Source: Bacteroidetes bacterium GWF2_38_335 (GTDB taxonomy: Bacteria; Bacteroidota; Bacteroidia; Bacteroidales; GWF2-38-335). From it: 64,000 bases of DNA. The position numbers were made by a program, and so were the translations under genes. Below are positions 8,285 through 47,567 of the stretch, piece by piece; the first letter of the stretch is position 1, and each line of letters opens with the position of its first letter. The notes beneath the pieces are model-generated. The model saw nothing but the letters and a program-made list of their open reading frames with translations, did not search any database and was not told where the DNA came from. The stretch covers positions 1-64,000 of the forward strand of contig MEOH01000018.1 in NCBI GenBank assembly GCA_001769535.1. The letters are read 5' to 3'.

Positions 8285-8852
8285 TTACTTCAAAGTATAT
8301 CTTTAAATTTCTTTTACCGTTTTGTATGTAGCTTTTAACCTGATTCTCTGAGAATCCTGTCATGCCCGCAATTTCCTTATAGCTCTTTTCACTGATGTAA
8401 AATAATTCTACACACTTTTTTTGTTCATCAGCCAAAGATTTTATGGCGTTTTCAAGAACTTCGAGACGAATTTCTTTTAATCTTCTGTTATTTAGGTCTT
8501 CCTCGTCATCAAATTCCATAAAAAAAGATTCATTTTTTAATTGATCTCCGTTCTCACCAACGGGTATTTCCTTTTTGTTTTTCTTTTTCAGACAATGGTT
8601 TTTGGTCACACTGTAAAGCCAGTTGCCAAAGTTTTTCACTTCGTGTGATTTCAGATCGCGCACCATTATTTCAAAGACCTCCATAACCGCATCTTCCATG
8701 TCGGCCTTATTTTTCAGGTATTTGTATGAAAGTGCAGTGATCAGGTGTGAATACCTCTGGAAAACAACTCCTGCATAATAAGTGTTGCTTGTGGACTTAT
8801 ATAACTGTATAAGTTCGACATCACTTTTTCCGTTATGCAGGCTTTTACTCAA
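8277..8852 (-). CDS. RNA polymerase ECF-type sigma factor (TTG start)
   Basis: A 191-residue sigma-70 family factor of the ECF group. Region 2 lies at about residues 25-95 (FQRYSHLITALSYKYLKNKA, DMEDAVMEVFEIMVRDL, NFGNWLYSVTKNHCLKK). An acidic linker follows. Region 4 lies at about 130-185 (SLADEQKKCVELFYISEKS and the helix-turn-helix YKEIAGMTGFSENQVKSYI). The start is TTG at 8852: the next in-frame Met would remove part of region 2, and ECF factors usually begin about this far ahead. It overlaps the anti-sigma gene. A matching ECF promoter lies 90 nt upstream, suggesting autoregulation. Confidence 0.9.
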   Translation of the reverse strand: MSKSLHNGKSDVELIQLYKSTSNTYYAGVVFQRYSHLITALSYKYLKNKADMEDAVMEVFEIMVRDLKSHEVKNFGNWLYSVTKNHCLKKKNKKEIPVGENGDQLKNESFFMEFDDEEDLNNRRLKEIRLEVLENAIKSLADEQKKCVELFYISEKSYKEIAGMTGFSENQVKSYIQNGKRNLKIYFEVNE

Positions 8853-43154: not shown

Positions 43155-44240
43155 CTATTTCCCCATAACCAAGGTCTGCCTGTTAATCGATTCCTGATGA
43201 ATGGCCTGCAGTAGTTTGGTCATGAAATCGCGGCTAAGGCCCTTTTTTGTTCCGTTTTTCAGGCGTTTTTCCATGATTTCATTCCACCGGTCTGATTGCA
43301 AAATGGTAATGCCGCTTTCCTTTTTATAACCGCCAATGATGTCGGCAATCACCATGCGTTGGGCCAGAGTGTCGATGAGATCGGCATCCAGACTGTCGAT
43401 ATGCTGGCGCAGTTCGCCCAGGGTGGTTTTTAAGATGCGGTCGTCAACCTGAATTTTTCTCAGGATCAGACTTTCAATTATCTCGGTCATTTCAGATGGC
43501 GTTACCTGTTGGTTTTTATCGCTGAGCGCTTCATCGGGATTGATGTGTGCTTCGATCATCAATCCATCGAAATTCAGGTCCATGGCCTTTTGTGAGACTT
43601 CCCTGAGAAGAGATTTATCACCGGTGATATGGCTTGGATCGCAAATCAAAGGCAATTGCGGCATCCTTCTCTTCATTTCGACCGGAATTTGCCATTGGGG
43701 AAGATTTCTGAAACGACCTGGTCCATAAGATGAAAAACCCCTGTGGATGCCAGCCAGTTTTCTGATTCCCGCTTTATTCAGCCGTTCGAGGGCACCGATC
43801 CACAGATCCACATCAGGATTTACGGGATTTTTTACCATCACCGGGATGTCAACGCCTTGCAGACTGTCGGCAATTTCCTGAACAGCGAAAGGGTTTGCGG
43901 TGGTGCGGGCGCCAATCCAGAGCACGTCCACTCCGTACCTTAGACATTCGTACACGTGTTTCACGTTGGCCACTTCGGTTGCAATTTTCATCCCTGTTTC
44001 CTGCTTCACTTGCAGCAACCATTTGAGTCCTTCGGATCCCACTCCCTCGAATGTGTCGGGACGAGTACGGGGTTTCCAGATTCCGGCGCGGTACACATCA
44101 ACGTTTCTTTTTTTCAGTTCCAGGGCTGTTTCCATGACCTGACTGCATGATTCGGCACTGCAAGGCCCGGCAATGATCACCGGTCTGCTGGCCTCTTGTA
44201 TCCATTCGGATAAAAGTTCGATTTTGAGATTTTCTTCCAT
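43155..44240 (-). CDS. DAHP synthase fused to type II chorismate mutase
   Basis: Bifunctional enzyme of aromatic biosynthesis, 361 residues. The N-terminal domain (about 1-255) is the KDO8PS-like DAHP synthase: IIAGPCSAESCSQVMETAL, DVYRAGIWKPRTRPDTFEG, LWIGARTTANPFAVQEIAD, PQLPLICDPSHITGDKSLL and IEAHINPDEALSD. The C-terminal 90 residues are an AroQ chorismate mutase (LRQHIDSLDADLIDTLAQRM, GITILQSDRWNEIMEKRLKN). It makes DAHP from PEP and erythrose 4-phosphate and converts chorismate to prephenate, feeding the two upstream genes. It lies 36 nt after tyrA and ends the operon. Confidence 0.95.
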   Translation of the reverse strand: MEENLKIELLSEWIQEASRPVIIAGPCSAESCSQVMETALELKKRNVDVYRAGIWKPRTRPDTFEGVGSEGLKWLLQVKQETGMKIATEVANVKHVYECLRYGVDVLWIGARTTANPFAVQEIADSLQGVDIPVMVKNPVNPDVDLWIGALERLNKAGIRKLAGIHRGFSSYGPGRFRNLPQWQIPVEMKRRMPQLPLICDPSHITGDKSLLREVSQKAMDLNFDGLMIEAHINPDEALSDKNQQVTPSEMTEIIESLILRKIQVDDRILKTTLGELRQHIDSLDADLIDTLAQRMVIADIIGGYKKESGITILQSDRWNEIMEKRLKNGTKKGLSRDFMTKLLQAIHQESINRQTLVMGK

Positions 44241-44276: not shown

Positions 44277-45248
44277 TTATGAAAACTGAGCCACTCCCCT
44301 CCTTTGGAGGGGCTGGGGGTGGGTTGACCCACCCCCGACCCCTCCGAGGGAGGGGATACCCACCCCCGACCCCTCCATGGGAGGGGAGTTGTTTGGGGCT
44401 AAATAATCCTCTATGGTATTAGCGGAGGATATTAGTTCGCGGCATTTTTCAGAATTGCCAGACTGTATGGCGTTTTTAAAAGCGCACATTTTTTCAATAC
44501 AGGTTTCAATGCCGGCAATGAGATTTTTTTGATTCTGCATGAAGATGGGCACCCACATGTCGGGCGAGCTGGCAGCAATTCTCACAGTGGATTTAAATCC
44601 GCCGCCTGCTAAAACCGAAATGGTTTCTTTGTCAACTGACTTTTCAAGTACGCTGAGCGCCAGCGCATAAGCACACACATGCGACAGATGGGAAATCAGT
44701 CCGCACCCGTAATCATGGCTTTCAGAATCCATATAGACAATTTGCATTTCAAGACTTTTGTACATTCCGGATACAAGAGTGAGCGCATCAGAATCGCTTT
44801 TTTCTTTGTTGCAGATGATGGCGGTTTTATGGGTAAACAGATTCGGGATTGCGGCATCCGGACCTGATTTTTCTGTTCCGGCCATGGGGTGCGAGGCCAC
44901 ATATCTTGATCTGTTCGGATGGTTTTCGAGCAAATATTCAATTTCATGCTTGGCCGATCCCAAATCAGTAACTACCTGATTGGTACAACGGTCCAGGACT
45001 TGTTTAAGCAGATCAGGAATATGATTCACGGGCACTGCAATTACAATCAGGTCGCAGCATTGGGGCATATTCGCGGGATGAACGATGGCGTCGGCATAAC
45101 CAAGTGAAATTGCAGCAGAAGAATGAGTGGGATTGATGTCCCATCCCATAATTTTTGCAGCAAATCCCGATTTTTTCAGGGAAATGGCCAGACTGCATCC
45201 CATGAGGCCGAGGCCGGCAATACCAATTATGTTTTTTTCTCTTTTCAT
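44277..45248 (-). CDS. tyrA: Prephenate dehydrogenase with repeat-encoded C-terminal tail
   Basis: Converts prephenate to 4-hydroxyphenylpyruvate for tyrosine, 323 residues. The NAD loop is IIGIAGLGLMGCSLAISLKK. Catalytic-region motifs are VTDLGSAKHEIEYLLE, RYVASHPMAGTEKSGPDAA and CGLISHLSHVCAYALA. Residues 286-323 (from NNSPPMEGSG to GVAQFS) are encoded by a GC-rich hairpin repeat and are unlike any TyrA tail; the normal enzyme ends near IEDYLAP. The ATG overlaps the pheA TGA (ATGA). There is no ACT domain. Confidence 0.93.
   Translation of the reverse strand: MKREKNIIGIAGLGLMGCSLAISLKKSGFAAKIMGWDINPTHSSAAISLGYADAIVHPANMPQCCDLIVIAVPVNHIPDLLKQVLDRCTNQVVTDLGSAKHEIEYLLENHPNRSRYVASHPMAGTEKSGPDAAIPNLFTHKTAIICNKEKSDSDALTLVSGMYKSLEMQIVYMDSESHDYGCGLISHLSHVCAYALALSVLEKSVDKETISVLAGGGFKSTVRIAASSPDMWVPIFMQNQKNLIAGIETCIEKMCAFKNAIQSGNSEKCRELISSANTIEDYLAPNNSPPMEGSGVGIPSLGGVGGGSTHPQPLQRRGVAQFS
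44289..44391. repeat. GC-rich hairpin repeat (copy 2), inside tyrA
   Basis: Three units of CCCCTCC-nnn-GGAGGGG with GGGGGTGGG linkers, the same type as at 5184-5360. It forms the 3' end of the tyrA reading frame and supplies Gly/Pro-rich codons. Confidence 0.88.
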
Positions 45249-46177
45249 TTCTCACTGTATTCTCCAAGTATTTTCAAGTTTCCTGTAAGTGGTTTGATTG
45301 CAGAGATTGCCGAACGATAGGTTTTATAATCGTCAAACAGCAAGTCGGTGTAGAAATCGTATTTCCATTCTTTTCCGGGAATTGGCACCGACTGGATTTT
45401 AGAAAGATTGACACCATAAAAAGACAAAACGGACAACACGGCAGCCAGACTTCCTTTTTCGTGTCTCAGGCAGAAAGTCAGAGAGGCCTTGTTTGCGTTT
45501 TCATTGGAGGAATTGTCATTTTTTTTAAGAACCAGAAAACGGGTATAATTGTTTTTATTCGTTTCGATACCGGCTTTAATAATTGGAAGACCGTATTTTT
45601 CGCTGGCATTTTTTCCGGCAATGGTGGCCACTCCCAAAAGTTTTTCACGGCTGATTTTGATGGCATTGGTCGCTGTGTCGCCACCCGGAATAATTTCAAT
45701 GCCGTTTAATTTGTCGAGAAACCCACGACATTGTTCAATGGCCATGTAATGAGAGCATATTTTTTTGATATTGCTCAGATTTTGTCCGGGCAGGGCCATC
45801 AGGTTTTGCTGAACATGGATGATGATTTCACCAGAAATGCACAAAGAAGAATTTTTAAGCAGCGGATAATTGGATATCAGTGAGCCGGCAACCGAATTTT
45901 CAATGGCCATCAGTCCGGACACCGCCTCACCAGAACTAACTGTTTCAATGAGCTTTTCGAACGAGTGACAAAAGATTTTCCCGGAATTTTTCCCGAAATA
46001 TTTATCAGCAGCCAGTTCATGAAAAGATCCTTCGTTGCCGAGGATGGCGGTTTTATTTACTAATAAAGTTGCCGCGAATGCGCTAATTTTGGTTTTATTG
46101 TTATTGCAATGAATGTCGGGCAGAATTATCTTCTCGGATTCCTCAGTGATGGTTTTTTGTGTTATCATTTTTTTCAT
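45245..46177 (-). CDS. pheA: Prephenate dehydratase with ACT domain
   Basis: Converts prephenate to phenylpyruvate for phenylalanine, 310 residues. The catalytic domain starts near residue 43 (KTAILGNEGSFHELAADKYF) and includes GLMAIENSVAGSLISNYPLL and the Thr-containing NNYTRFLVLKK. A C-terminal ACT domain (about 228-305; ASLTFCLRHEKGSLAAVLSVL, KIQSVPIPGKEWKYDFYTDL) binds phenylalanine for feedback control. There is no chorismate mutase here; that activity is fused to the DAHP synthase. The first 40 residues are extra, and diverged copies of their coding DNA occur twice upstream. The ATG at 46177 (MKKMITQ) is used; 46168 is possible. First gene of the pheA-tyrA-DAHPS operon. Confidence 0.93.
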   Translation of the reverse strand: MKKMITQKTITEESEKIILPDIHCNNNKTKISAFAATLLVNKTAILGNEGSFHELAADKYFGKNSGKIFCHSFEKLIETVSSGEAVSGLMAIENSVAGSLISNYPLLKNSSLCISGEIIIHVQQNLMALPGQNLSNIKKICSHYMAIEQCRGFLDKLNGIEIIPGGDTATNAIKISREKLLGVATIAGKNASEKYGLPIIKAGIETNKNNYTRFLVLKKNDNSSNENANKASLTFCLRHEKGSLAAVLSVLSFYGVNLSKIQSVPIPGKEWKYDFYTDLLFDDYKTYRSAISAIKPLTGNLKILGEYSEK

Positions 46178-46234
46178 TTTAAAATTATTCGAGCATTTCT
46201 TGCTTCGCTGCGAGAAATTGCTTTGCTATATTAT

Positions 46235-46383
46235 AGCCGCTAATGGGCGAATGTTGGTTTTAATGTTTTTGCAAAGAATGCCAGAAAGTAATATTCTCCC
46301 GGAATCTTCAGAATTGTTTAATGTGTAATTCATATATTTTTTCATTCATCTTTTTATAAAAATTCATTCACGCATTAGCGGCT
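46235..46383 (-). repeat. Decayed copy of the pheA 5' end (copy nearest the gene)
   Basis: The segment aligns with the start of pheA and with 46500-46640. Shared blocks on the plus strand include GGTTTTAATGTTTTT(G/A)CAA and CTCCCGGAATCTTCAG. A frame starting MNEKIYELHIKQF stops after 13 codons, so it no longer encodes a pheA-like peptide. The ends carry an imperfect inverted repeat: AGCCGCTAATG then (G/C)G(C/T)GAATG (46235-46253/46365-46383). Confidence 0.7.
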
Positions 46384-46387
46384 AAAC

Positions 46388-46416
46388 AAAAAAAAGTCCC
46401 GGAGTATTTCCGGGAC
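46388..46416 (-). terminator. Attenuator 2 terminator of the pheA operon
   Basis: On the minus strand GTCCCGG (46416-46410), a 7-nt loop, CCGGGAC (46402-46396) and eight T. The antiterminator segment CCGGGAC lies at 46457-46451, inside the end of leader ORF 2, and can pair with the GTCCCGG arm instead. Confidence 0.85.
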
Positions 46417-46442
46417 CTTTTAAATATCTTTATATTAATATC

Positions 46443-46616
46443 TTATGGCAGTCCCGGTTTTGGTCTGTAATAGAAGAAAAAGAAAAAATTAGCCGCGTTC
46501 CGACAGTTATCGGGAGTGCAGTTTTTGGTTTTAATGTTTTTACAATGAGTACCGGGCATTATAATCCTCCCGGAATCTTCAGTATTGTTTAATATGTCAA
46601 TTCTATGTTTTTTCAT
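46443..46616 (-). CDS. Leader peptide 2 with Phe5-Tyr2 run, pheA-derived N-terminus
   Basis: A 57-residue regulatory ORF. It begins MKKHRIDILNNTEDSGRIIM. Residues 11-30 (NTEDSGRIIMPGTHCKNIKT) align with the PheA stretch TEESEKIILPDIHCNNNKTK. It then runs into AANFFFFFYYRPKPGLP and stops. The codons for five Phe and two Tyr come just before CCG GGA CTG, which is the antiterminator segment. Stalling there when Phe-tRNA or Tyr-tRNA is scarce would block the terminator at 46388-46416. An inner ATG at 46559 with GGGAGG 7 nt ahead could be the actual start, giving 38 residues. Confidence 0.7.
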   Translation of the reverse strand: MKKHRIDILNNTEDSGRIIMPGTHCKNIKTKNCTPDNCRNAANFFFFFYYRPKPGLP

Positions 46617-46681
46617 TTATCTTTTTTAATAATTCATTCGCGCTCCCGATCGCTATCGGGAATCGGCCAAACAGCGGCAAG

Positions 46682-46712
46682 AAAAAAAAAGTCCCGAAAA
46701 ATTTCCGGGACC
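46682..46712 (-). terminator. Attenuator 1 terminator of the pheA operon
   Basis: On the minus strand GGTCCCGG (46712-46705), an AAATTTTT loop region, CGGGAC (46696-46691) and nine T. The competing segment CCGGGAC is at 46745-46739, directly after the stop codon of leader peptide 1. Confidence 0.85.
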
Positions 46713-46745
46713 TGTATATAATAAGTTTTTGCATAACAGTCCCGG

Positions 46746-46790
46746 TCATGTTTTAAAGAAAAAGAAATAATATTTTACAAATTGTTTCAC
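46746..46790 (-). CDS. Leader peptide 1, MKQFVKYYFFFFKT
   Basis: A 14-codon ORF with a GTG start about 16 nt after the predicted transcription start. It reads M-K-Q-F-V-K-Y-Y-F-F-F-F-K-T and ends in TGA. Seven of its 14 codons are Phe or Tyr, the products of the operon. Its stop codon abuts the CCGGGAC antiterminator segment, which is the geometry of ribosome-controlled attenuation as in enterobacterial pheA. Upstream bases are A-rich, without a Shine-Dalgarno sequence. Confidence 0.8.
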   Translation of the reverse strand: MKQFVKYYFFFFKT

Positions 46791-46812
46791 TTTTGTTTTT
46801 TTTAATCAGCCA

Positions 46813-46844
46813 CAAACATAATATATGAAAAGGGGGTTTGTCAA
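46813..46844 (-). promoter_or_regulatory. Promoter of the pheA operon
   Basis: TTGACA (46844-46839), an 18-nt spacer and TATGTTTG (46820-46813) on the minus strand. It fits the Bacteroidota consensus of a TTG-containing -33 and TAnnTTTG -7. Transcription should begin near 46806. Confidence 0.8.
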
Positions 46845-46955
46845 GCATTTTTTGAAATATTTTCAGTTTTTGGTAAAAAATACGCACTGCTACTGATGTA
46901 CTAAGGGGTCAAAAAAACACCGTTCAGCTGTCCTCTATCGCGACCATTCACCAAA

Positions 46956-47006
46956 AAAATAAGCCATTTTGTCACTACAGTCTGTCAAAATAAGCCATTT
47001 TGTCAC
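46956..47006 (+). repeat. 20-bp direct repeat upstream of hsp20
   Basis: AAAATAAGCCATTTTGTCAC occurs exactly at 46956-46975 and 46987-47006, a 31-bp period (about three helical turns). It may be an operator for the heat-shock gene starting at 47127. The 46861-47126 gap otherwise shows only GTCA-rich sequence. Confidence 0.7.
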
Positions 47007-47126
47007 CAAAAAAAGTAAAATTCCGGTCAAAAATGTCAATTTTCACCTTTGGTATTTAATTTGAAATATCTCCATCAGAAATAAAAAAAATTAAAAGTTT
47101 AACTAAAAATTATGGAGGACAAAGCC

Positions 47127-47567
47127 ATGACAATAGTAAAAAGAACCAACAATGTGTTACCGACTTTCTTTGATGATTTCTTCACAGACAGTTTCTTTAA
47201 CACACCCGTATACAGGAGATTTAGCAACCAGGCTCCGGCAGTGAACATCAGAGAAAGCGAAAATGACTTTCAGATTGAGGTAGCCGCACCGGGATTTGGA
47301 AAAGATGATTTTAAGGTTGAATTTGAAAACAACCGTCTCACAATTTCTTCAAAAAATGAGATCAACAATGAGGAGCAGGATGATAGCAAAGGGTTTATCA
47401 GAAGGGAGTTTAGCTATCAATCGTTCGAAAGATCTTTCACCGTTGATGAAAAAAGCATCGATAGCGAAAAGATTCAGGCTAAGTATGAAAATGGGATTCT
47501 GACCTTATCGCTTCCCAAACGTGAAGAGCTTAAGCCAAAACCTGCAAGGATGATTCAGATCTCATAA
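47127..47567 (+). CDS. Hsp20/alpha-crystallin small heat-shock protein
   Basis: An ATP-independent chaperone that holds unfolded proteins, 146 residues from the chosen start. The N-terminus MTIVKRTNNVLPTFFDDFFT is family-like. The alpha-crystallin domain runs from VNIRESENDFQIEVAAPGFG to YENGILTLSLPKREE, with the usual GxLTLxLPK signature. The ATG at 47127 is preferred to 47112 because GGAGG (47114-47118) lies 8 nt before it and overlaps the upstream candidate start. A strong terminator follows. Confidence 0.95.
   Translation: MTIVKRTNNVLPTFFDDFFTDSFFNTPVYRRFSNQAPAVNIRESENDFQIEVAAPGFGKDDFKVEFENNRLTISSKNEINNEEQDDSKGFIRREFSYQSFERSFTVDEKSIDSEKIQAKYENGILTLSLPKREELKPKPARMIQIS

Follow-up and report, generated by a model that had tools for sequence, protein, structure and literature searches.

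On the minus strand of the window (the whole stretch of 64,000 nucleotides analysed here), two leader peptides with runs of Phe and Tyr codons, each with a terminator behind it, lie between a single promoter and the pheA-tyrA-DAHP synthase operon, which raises the question of how one operon would be controlled by two such units and what each of them would sense. The classical anatomy of ribosome-controlled attenuation of amino-acid operons is that of E. coli pheA, trp and his, and in textbooks attenuation usually means one switch per operon; among the relatives of this bacterium single units are common and doubled ones occur in several families. We consider it probable that the operon is under two ribosome-controlled transcription attenuators in series behind the one promoter, both of them sensing both amino acids, and that the second unit came from a local duplication of ~290 bp. 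The series arrangement had been put forward in the original prediction, and it is now backed by its geometry, by controls and by a comparison over 161 pheA loci.

Two leader and terminator units before pheA

The pheA leader is confirmed to hold two complete predicted leader/terminator units behind one promoter, with the promoter, both leaders, their CCGGGAC strands and both terminators all lying where the original prediction had placed them; every feature of the locus described below is on the minus strand. The promoter (46813-46844) combines TTGACA at 46839-46844 with TATGTTTG at 46813-46820. TAnnTTTG is the Bacteroidota promoter consensus, and its single occurrence on the minus strand between 46100 and 47110 is that of the pheA promoter. 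A second promoter between the units was considered and rejected, as no TAnnTTTG is found there and a TTGACA at 46600 is without such a partner; a weak sigma-70-like match at 46629-46600, also between the units, is not above chance level. Further upstream, the interval that separates the pheA promoter from the divergent Hsp20 gene (47112) contains a perfect 20-nt direct repeat, AAAATAAGCCATTTTGTCAC, at 46956-46975 and 46987-47006 (spaced 31 nt), which is a possible protein-binding site.

Unit 1 (46681-46790) begins with leader peptide 1 (46746-46790), which has a GTG start, reads (V/M)KQFVKYYFFFFKT up to its stop and contains the aromatic run YYFFFF. Directly after its TGA, and 9 nt past the last Phe codon, lies the putative antiterminator strand, region 2, with the sequence CCGGGACT (46738-46745), and this is followed by terminator 1 (46681-46713), a stem at 46689-46713 (-14.2 kcal/mol) with a T run, the 5' arm of which is complementary to region 2. 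Likewise, unit 2 (46387-46616) begins with leader ORF 2 (46443-46616), a 57 amino acid reading frame that starts MKKHRIDILNNTEDSGRIIMPGTHC and ends FFFFFYYRPKPGLP before its stop, with the aromatic run FFFFFYY and an alternative ATG at 46557-46559 that is preceded by GGAGG. Here the same region 2 (46450-46457) lies within the final leader codons, 9 nt past the last Tyr codon, so that the spacing between the last aromatic codon and region 2 is identical in the two units, and its complementarity to the 5' arm of terminator 2 is perfect. Terminator 2 (46387-46421) is a 13-bp stem at 46391-46421 (-19.5 kcal/mol) with a T run. Across 46000-47200, both strands included, we found five terminator-like sites against a shuffle mean of 0.9, while a stricter scan of the 633-nt leader returned two sites against a shuffle mean of 0.03, with two reached in none of 300 shuffles.

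Downstream of the leader lie pheA (45245-46177; prephenate dehydratase, PF00800), tyrA (44277-45248; prephenate dehydrogenase, PF02153 and PF20463) and a DAHP synthase-chorismate mutase fusion (43155-44240; PF00793 and PF01817), and the products of this operon make the very amino acids that are encoded in the leader runs. The 3' end of tyrA (44277-44400) carries an odd low-complexity tail, PPMEGSGVGIPSLGGVGGGSTHPQPLQRRGVAQFS, as though the gene had entered a repeat.

The pair of units looks like the result of a local duplication of about 290 bp. Local alignment of unit 1 with unit 2 scores 100 over most of their length (maximum of 21 in 300 shuffles), and the leader parts alone score 20 (maximum of 16.5 in 500 shuffles). 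The start of leader 2 is a copy of pheA's own 5' end, a 102-nt repeat (D1) present in three copies. The first, D1a (46525-46626), provides the leader 2 start and is 81% identical to D1b (46254-46355), which lies between terminator 2 and pheA and contains a short ORF, MKKYMNYTLNNSEDSGRILLSGILCKNIKTNIRPLAAII, from 46345, while D1c (46089-46190), 62% identical to D1b, is the 5' end of pheA itself and encodes an N-terminal extension. D1a and D1b differ at 19% of positions, yet the two units share the same region 2, 5' arm and 9-nt spacing. The D1a/D1b differences fall about equally on the three codon positions (6, 5 and 7), so that coding constraint on these repeats, which we looked for, was not detected by this measure, and the N-terminal part of leader 2 appears to be free of it.

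The extension of PheA covers ~41 residues (46055-46177) and was absent in all 18 relatives read. Since the similarity of these 18 proteins to PheA begins only at window residue 32-42, with the nearest ATG at most 11 residues off (the starts being those that we assigned), the extension seems to be particular to this lineage; its first part resembles the start of leader 2, of which it is a diverged copy. In the simplest history, the pheA 5' end would have been duplicated first, and leader, terminator and D1 would later have been copied together in a tandem duplication of ~290 bp. The locus would thereby illustrate one way in which such a switch may be copied, the new leader taking its start from a duplicate of that of the gene under control. 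Long inverted repeats flank both D1a (46489-46519 and 46640-46670; predicted fold -50.4 kcal/mol) and D1b (46234-46253 and 46365-46384; -39.2 kcal/mol), and their arms resemble dispersed repeats of this genome, with CATTAGCGGCTA found at 65 places with at most one mismatch, compared with 29 for a reversed control.

RNA folding and the proposed mode of control

We propose that, when Phe-tRNA and Tyr-tRNA are both ample, the ribosome would reach the leader stop and cover region 2, leaving the terminator 5' arm free and allowing the terminator to form. With either tRNA short, the ribosome would stall on the Phe/Tyr codons with 9 nt or more to go before region 2, which could then pair with the 5' arm once this had been transcribed, and the polymerase would continue to the second unit, where leader 2 would now be translated from its copied pheA start. 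According to the accessible text of PMC4833913, a ribosome at a stop codon covers up to 12 nt downstream. In unit 1 the TGA is directly 5' of region 2 and in unit 2 region 2 is within the last codons, and with such cover a ribosome finishing the leader should therefore hide region 2 in both. As the polymerase must pass both units to reach pheA, expression would be the product of two read-through probabilities (p1 times p2), and by simple arithmetic a ten-fold switch, if doubled, would become a hundred-fold one, with repression tighter and the response steeper than with a single unit.

Folding of both units recovered the two terminators as well as the alternative pairing of region 2 with the terminator 5' arm (arm 3), as had been anticipated. 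The terminator parts gave fold z-scores of -4.05 (unit 1) and -4.39 (unit 2), and when whole regions were folded unit 2 reached -4.14 and unit 1 only -0.70, which is no better than shuffles. In nascent RNA ending at the 5' arm, with the upstream leader included, the pairing between region 2 and arm 3 forms in both units (-15.8 and -26.6 kcal/mol for units 1 and 2, respectively), persists when a stalled ribosome is masked (-15.0 and -19.5 kcal/mol) and is lost when a ribosome at the stop codon is masked (-0.4 and -12.3 kcal/mol). Shorter pieces, beginning inside the leaders, gave the same picture. In unit 2, the minimum-energy fold with the terminator formed, a single fold, joins region 2 to GCACTCCCG (46511-46519), a candidate for the remaining strand and thus for a possible 1:2 hairpin.

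Compared as helices, the terminators (3:4) are stronger than the antiterminators (2:3), at -14.2 versus -13.5 kcal/mol in unit 1 and -19.5 versus -13.2 kcal/mol in unit 2, and it is the terminators that full folds display. Antitermination must therefore be kinetic, with the choice falling during transcription; the kinetics of ribosome-controlled attenuation are treated in PMC1183508, as far as its accessible text goes. We count this preference at equilibrium against our own explanation, together with the GTG start of leader 1, the length of leader 2, its position partly inside a strong predicted hairpin, the even spread of differences in its D1a part, the fold of the unit 1 region (z -0.70), the 19 of 161 pheA loci in which no unit was found and the poor conservation of unit 2 in families f93, f25 and f62.

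Leader units across the order and at other operons

We scanned 1 kb upstream of pheA at 163 loci, two of which were too short at contig ends (L030 and L110), leaving 161 loci that comprise 151 genomes of the same order and 10 loci from named metagenome-assembled genomes (MAGs). One or more units, each an F/Y leader and a terminator whose 5' arm pairs with a strand past the aromatic codons, were present at 142 of the 161, and two units with separate terminators at 22, so that the leader-terminator pairs sought among relatives were indeed found. Among the 160 loci with 400 nt or more, forward sequences gave 141 hits, reverse complements none and dinucleotide shuffles 2 in 800. Region 2 scored at least 12 against its own terminator in 72% of 162 units, compared with 17% against arms of other families and 7% when region 2 was shuffled; the first figure is inflated by the selection of units for having some pairing, and the weight thus rests on the contrast with mismatched arms and on placement, region 2 lying 7-16 nt past the last aromatic codon in 151 of the 162. 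The strict script required at least five aromatic residues in eight and a strict U tail, and tandems are therefore probably under-counted.

Seven loci were dropped as repeat matches of genomes already counted (L040, L045, L049, L058, L063, L065 and L070), and 26 of the 177 genomes of the order with PF00800, among them G238, are outside the counts. L011 and L087 share their leader and probably come from a single organism. In a wider sample of the phylum 258 of 296 genomes had a match, and none of the 30 best-scoring loci, the ones read, carried an F/Y unit, these being a biased sample of which 29 fall outside the class by the kinship table and one, also without a unit, within it; a MAG labelled Ignavibacteria (L016) does have an F/Y unit. 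The only congeneric genome compared (G001) has no PF00800, and so offers no pheA leader to set beside the window pair; its DAHP synthase, at another locus, has no leader. This 95% complete assembly also contains no PF00920, though hisG and DAHP synthase are present, and if it is correct the organism may lack the ability to make Phe and branched-chain amino acids.

The 22 tandem loci are spread over 11 numbered families (f1, which is that of the window, f15, f23, f25, f60, f62, f68, f80, f93, f96 and f117) and two MAGs, one labelled Bacteroidales and one Salinivirgaceae. Two units are also present in G007 (f7), outside this count, as seen through L039, which was first set aside as a fragment and later recognised as the 5' end of the pheA of that genome. 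A relaxed count of leaders alone found two at 29 of 160 loci (in reverse complements, none with two and two with one), which adds f70, f78, f88, f99, f106 and more members of f60 and f62 to the strict set and loses L015, L138 and L144; L107, L130 and L150 are single in the strict scan and have two leaders in the relaxed one. Between species of f15, unit 1 matches unit 1 at 0.80-0.94 and unit 2 matches unit 2 at 0.72-0.89, compared with cross matches of 0.59-0.64, and in f117 the corresponding values are 0.97, 0.96 and 0.68-0.69. As like matches like clearly above the cross match, both units have been kept since the species split in these two families. In f60 the excess is small (0.72 and 0.74 versus 0.66-0.67), while in f93, f25 and f62 unit 1 is conserved between species (0.75-0.88) and unit 2 poorly so (0.52-0.74). 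Single-unit congeners occur in g68 (L146, L147 and L149) and g117 (L173), and L141 in g15 has a possible remnant of a second unit.

These comparisons bear on whether unit 2 works at all. Unit 1 might be the sole working attenuator, with unit 2 a duplicate that is drifting or acts as a constitutive extra stop, its 57-residue fused leader being poorly translated. Such a reading would suit a leader that is long, duplicated, free of codon-position bias in its D1a part and partly inside a hairpin that is predicted to be strong (-50.4 kcal/mol for 46486-46682), as it would a terminator much stronger than its antiterminator and the weaker conservation of unit 2 in the three families just named. We none-the-less think it unlikely, since unit 2 retains its aromatic run, the 9-nt spacing and perfect complementarity between region 2 and arm 3, its start copies that of pheA, and both units are retained between species in f15 and f117.

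For two working units, the original prediction had offered either multiplied repression or separate sensing of the two amino acids, and multiplied repression appears to be the best reading of the doubling. A division of labour, with unit 1 sensing mainly Tyr and unit 2 mainly Phe in the manner of the two-signal tandem of Salmonella mgtCBR, was suggested by the codon order (YYFFFF in unit 1, FFFFFYY in unit 2) and agrees with a Tyr fraction that is higher in unit 1 at 14 of the 22 tandem loci. However, this trend is not significant (14 versus 6 with 2 ties, sign test p = 0.12, at loci that are not independent), both residues occur in both leaders at all 22 tandem loci, and in the window each leader has five Phe and two Tyr codons. 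Because each aromatic run stops 9 nt short of region 2, stalling on either Phe or Tyr codons should leave region 2 free to pair, and we judge separate sensing to be distinctly improbable.

A coupling of the two units, in which read-through of unit 1 would free its terminator 3' arm (arm 4) to pair with the 5' arm of terminator 2 and so ease the second passage, has favourable energies in the window, at -17.0 kcal/mol for arm 4 of unit 1 with arm 3 of unit 2 and -16.0 kcal/mol for region 2 of unit 1 with the same arm. The identity of the 5' arms, though, follows from the duplication, the strands are nearly 300 nt apart, and at 20 of the 21 other tandem loci region 2 of unit 1 fits terminator 2 worse than its own terminator (L021 is a tie, 9 and 9); pairing of arm 4 across units was compared in the window only. 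We consider such coupling very unlikely.

With two attenuators in series acting as successive gates on the same signal, the second could bring a lower basal level, a steeper response or less noise, and the natural contrast between one-unit and two-unit operons, sometimes within one genus, makes the gain from a second switch testable.

The same design is found at two further operons of this genome (G000). Before hisG (L293; contig C23, reverse strand, leader starts at 8744 and 8509, hisG start at 8374) there are two His units, with leaders MRNLYFNNNHHYLPENR and MRNYFNINHFNYHHPMEKVQR, and the terminator after each pairs with a 7-nt strand. Before ilvD (L217; contig C16, leader starts at 266205 and 266352, ilvD start at 266537) there are two Ile/Leu/Val units, with leaders MKKFNIIISIIIFSIIVKC and MIKHLIANIIIVIIILTYPPG; the pairing in the first is 11 bp, and in the second 5 bp by script and longer, with one mismatch, by manual reading. 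Both the hisG and the ilvD leader contain two terminators, a number reached in none of 300 shuffles. The scripts caught a single unit at each of these two operons, the other being found by reading. No leader was seen at two further loci of the genome, those of a second DAHP synthase (L182) and of a weak PF04715 match (L216). With F/Y at pheA, His at hisG and Ile/Leu/Val at ilvD, the leader codons follow the product of the pathway.

Order-wide, a His unit was present at 55 of the 71 hisG loci read (from 118 genomes; reverse complements 0/71) and an Ile/Leu/Val unit at 22 of the 31 ilvD loci read (from 103 genomes; reverse complements 0/31). Two units precede hisG at five loci by script, six when the genome of the window is counted, with some pairings of only 5 bp, and the hisG of the congeneric G001 (L218) has one unit by script. 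Besides the window's genome, one other ilvD locus (L320) convincingly has two units; what looked like an ilv tandem in L307 was discarded, its pairing being 3 bp.

Doubling at pheA, hisG and ilvD within one genome looks unusual. We regard it as evenly balanced whether serial attenuation by the same amino acids is a recurrent design for the amino-acid operons of this order, in which pairs would arise by local duplication, come and go within genera, persist from species to species, and work as a two-step gate whose repression ratio is the square of that of one unit, the genome of the window having it at all three operons. If it is, the threefold doubling would suggest that selection in this lineage favoured near-zero basal expression.

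No Rfam family reached its gathering score in the window or at eight other loci. Phe_leader (RF01859) covers 46387-46508 at 23.0 bits (E 0.25), short of its gathering score of 55, and together with His_leader and Trp_leader it ranks as a sub-threshold hit among chance matches, so that no known RNA family was accepted here. Of the 11 matches up to E = 1 in 46100-46900, none is to Bacteroid-trp (RF01692), a Bacteroidetes motif listed in PMC2864571. The idea that the operon is merely preceded by two ordinary terminators or a ligand-binding RNA would accord with the lack of an Rfam family at gathering score in the window, and is hardly credible given that leader, spacing and pairing recur at 142 of 161 pheA loci, with His codons at 55 of 71 hisG and Ile/Leu/Val codons at 22 of 31 ilvD loci. 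These counts suggest instead that leader peptides which Rfam leaves unannotated control much of amino-acid biosynthesis in this order.

Comparison with known systems

Like the classical attenuators, each unit of the window has a leader peptide rich in codons for the product, an adjoining strand that would compete for the 5' arm of the terminator, and an intrinsic terminator before the genes. Unlike them, the window has a series of two complete units, in which Phe and Tyr codons are mixed, and a 1:2 hairpin of the classical kind has a candidate in unit 2, from one fold. The mechanism would thus be of a classical type, and tandem attenuators as such are known; a pair that reads the same signal before an amino-acid operon was not found described in the open-licence literature, supplements aside, and Lopatovskaya et al. 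2010 may cover Bacteroidetes attenuators.

The original prediction knew of no described tandem pheA attenuator in Bacteroidota, and we found none in the open-licence papers searched; leader-peptide attenuation before amino-acid operons is mentioned in print for the phylum. For Flavobacterium psychrophilum and the Flavobacteriaceae, PMC9723704 gives strong clues for it before amino-acid operons, with structured 5' elements before pheA and hisG that are conserved in the family and have no Rfam matches; these elements are from the same phylum, and the accessible text describes neither a tandem arrangement nor the pairing anatomy. In B. thetaiotaomicron, the transcriptome map of PMC7366714 includes leader-peptide-like ORFs in long 5' UTRs. 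For the same pathway, PMC6429828, a study of five genomes, none of them Bacteroidota, shows two candidate F/Y upstream ORFs near shikimate genes, and its accessible text does not place both in one leader.

A further parallel is Salmonella mgtCBR, in which tandem attenuators sense ATP and proline; its authors call it a "singular example" and give a single attenuator as the usual state for such genes (PMC3641672, accessible text). The window resembles it in having two leader ORFs in one leader mRNA, each of which would control transcription into the same operon, and differs in that its units appear to read the same amino acids and have an intrinsic terminator each. Serial doubling is also known from tandem riboswitches, where the available passages of PMC3641672 and PMC2864571 tie it to more digital control; those RNAs sense their ligand directly, whereas the sensor at each unit of the window would be a translating ribosome.
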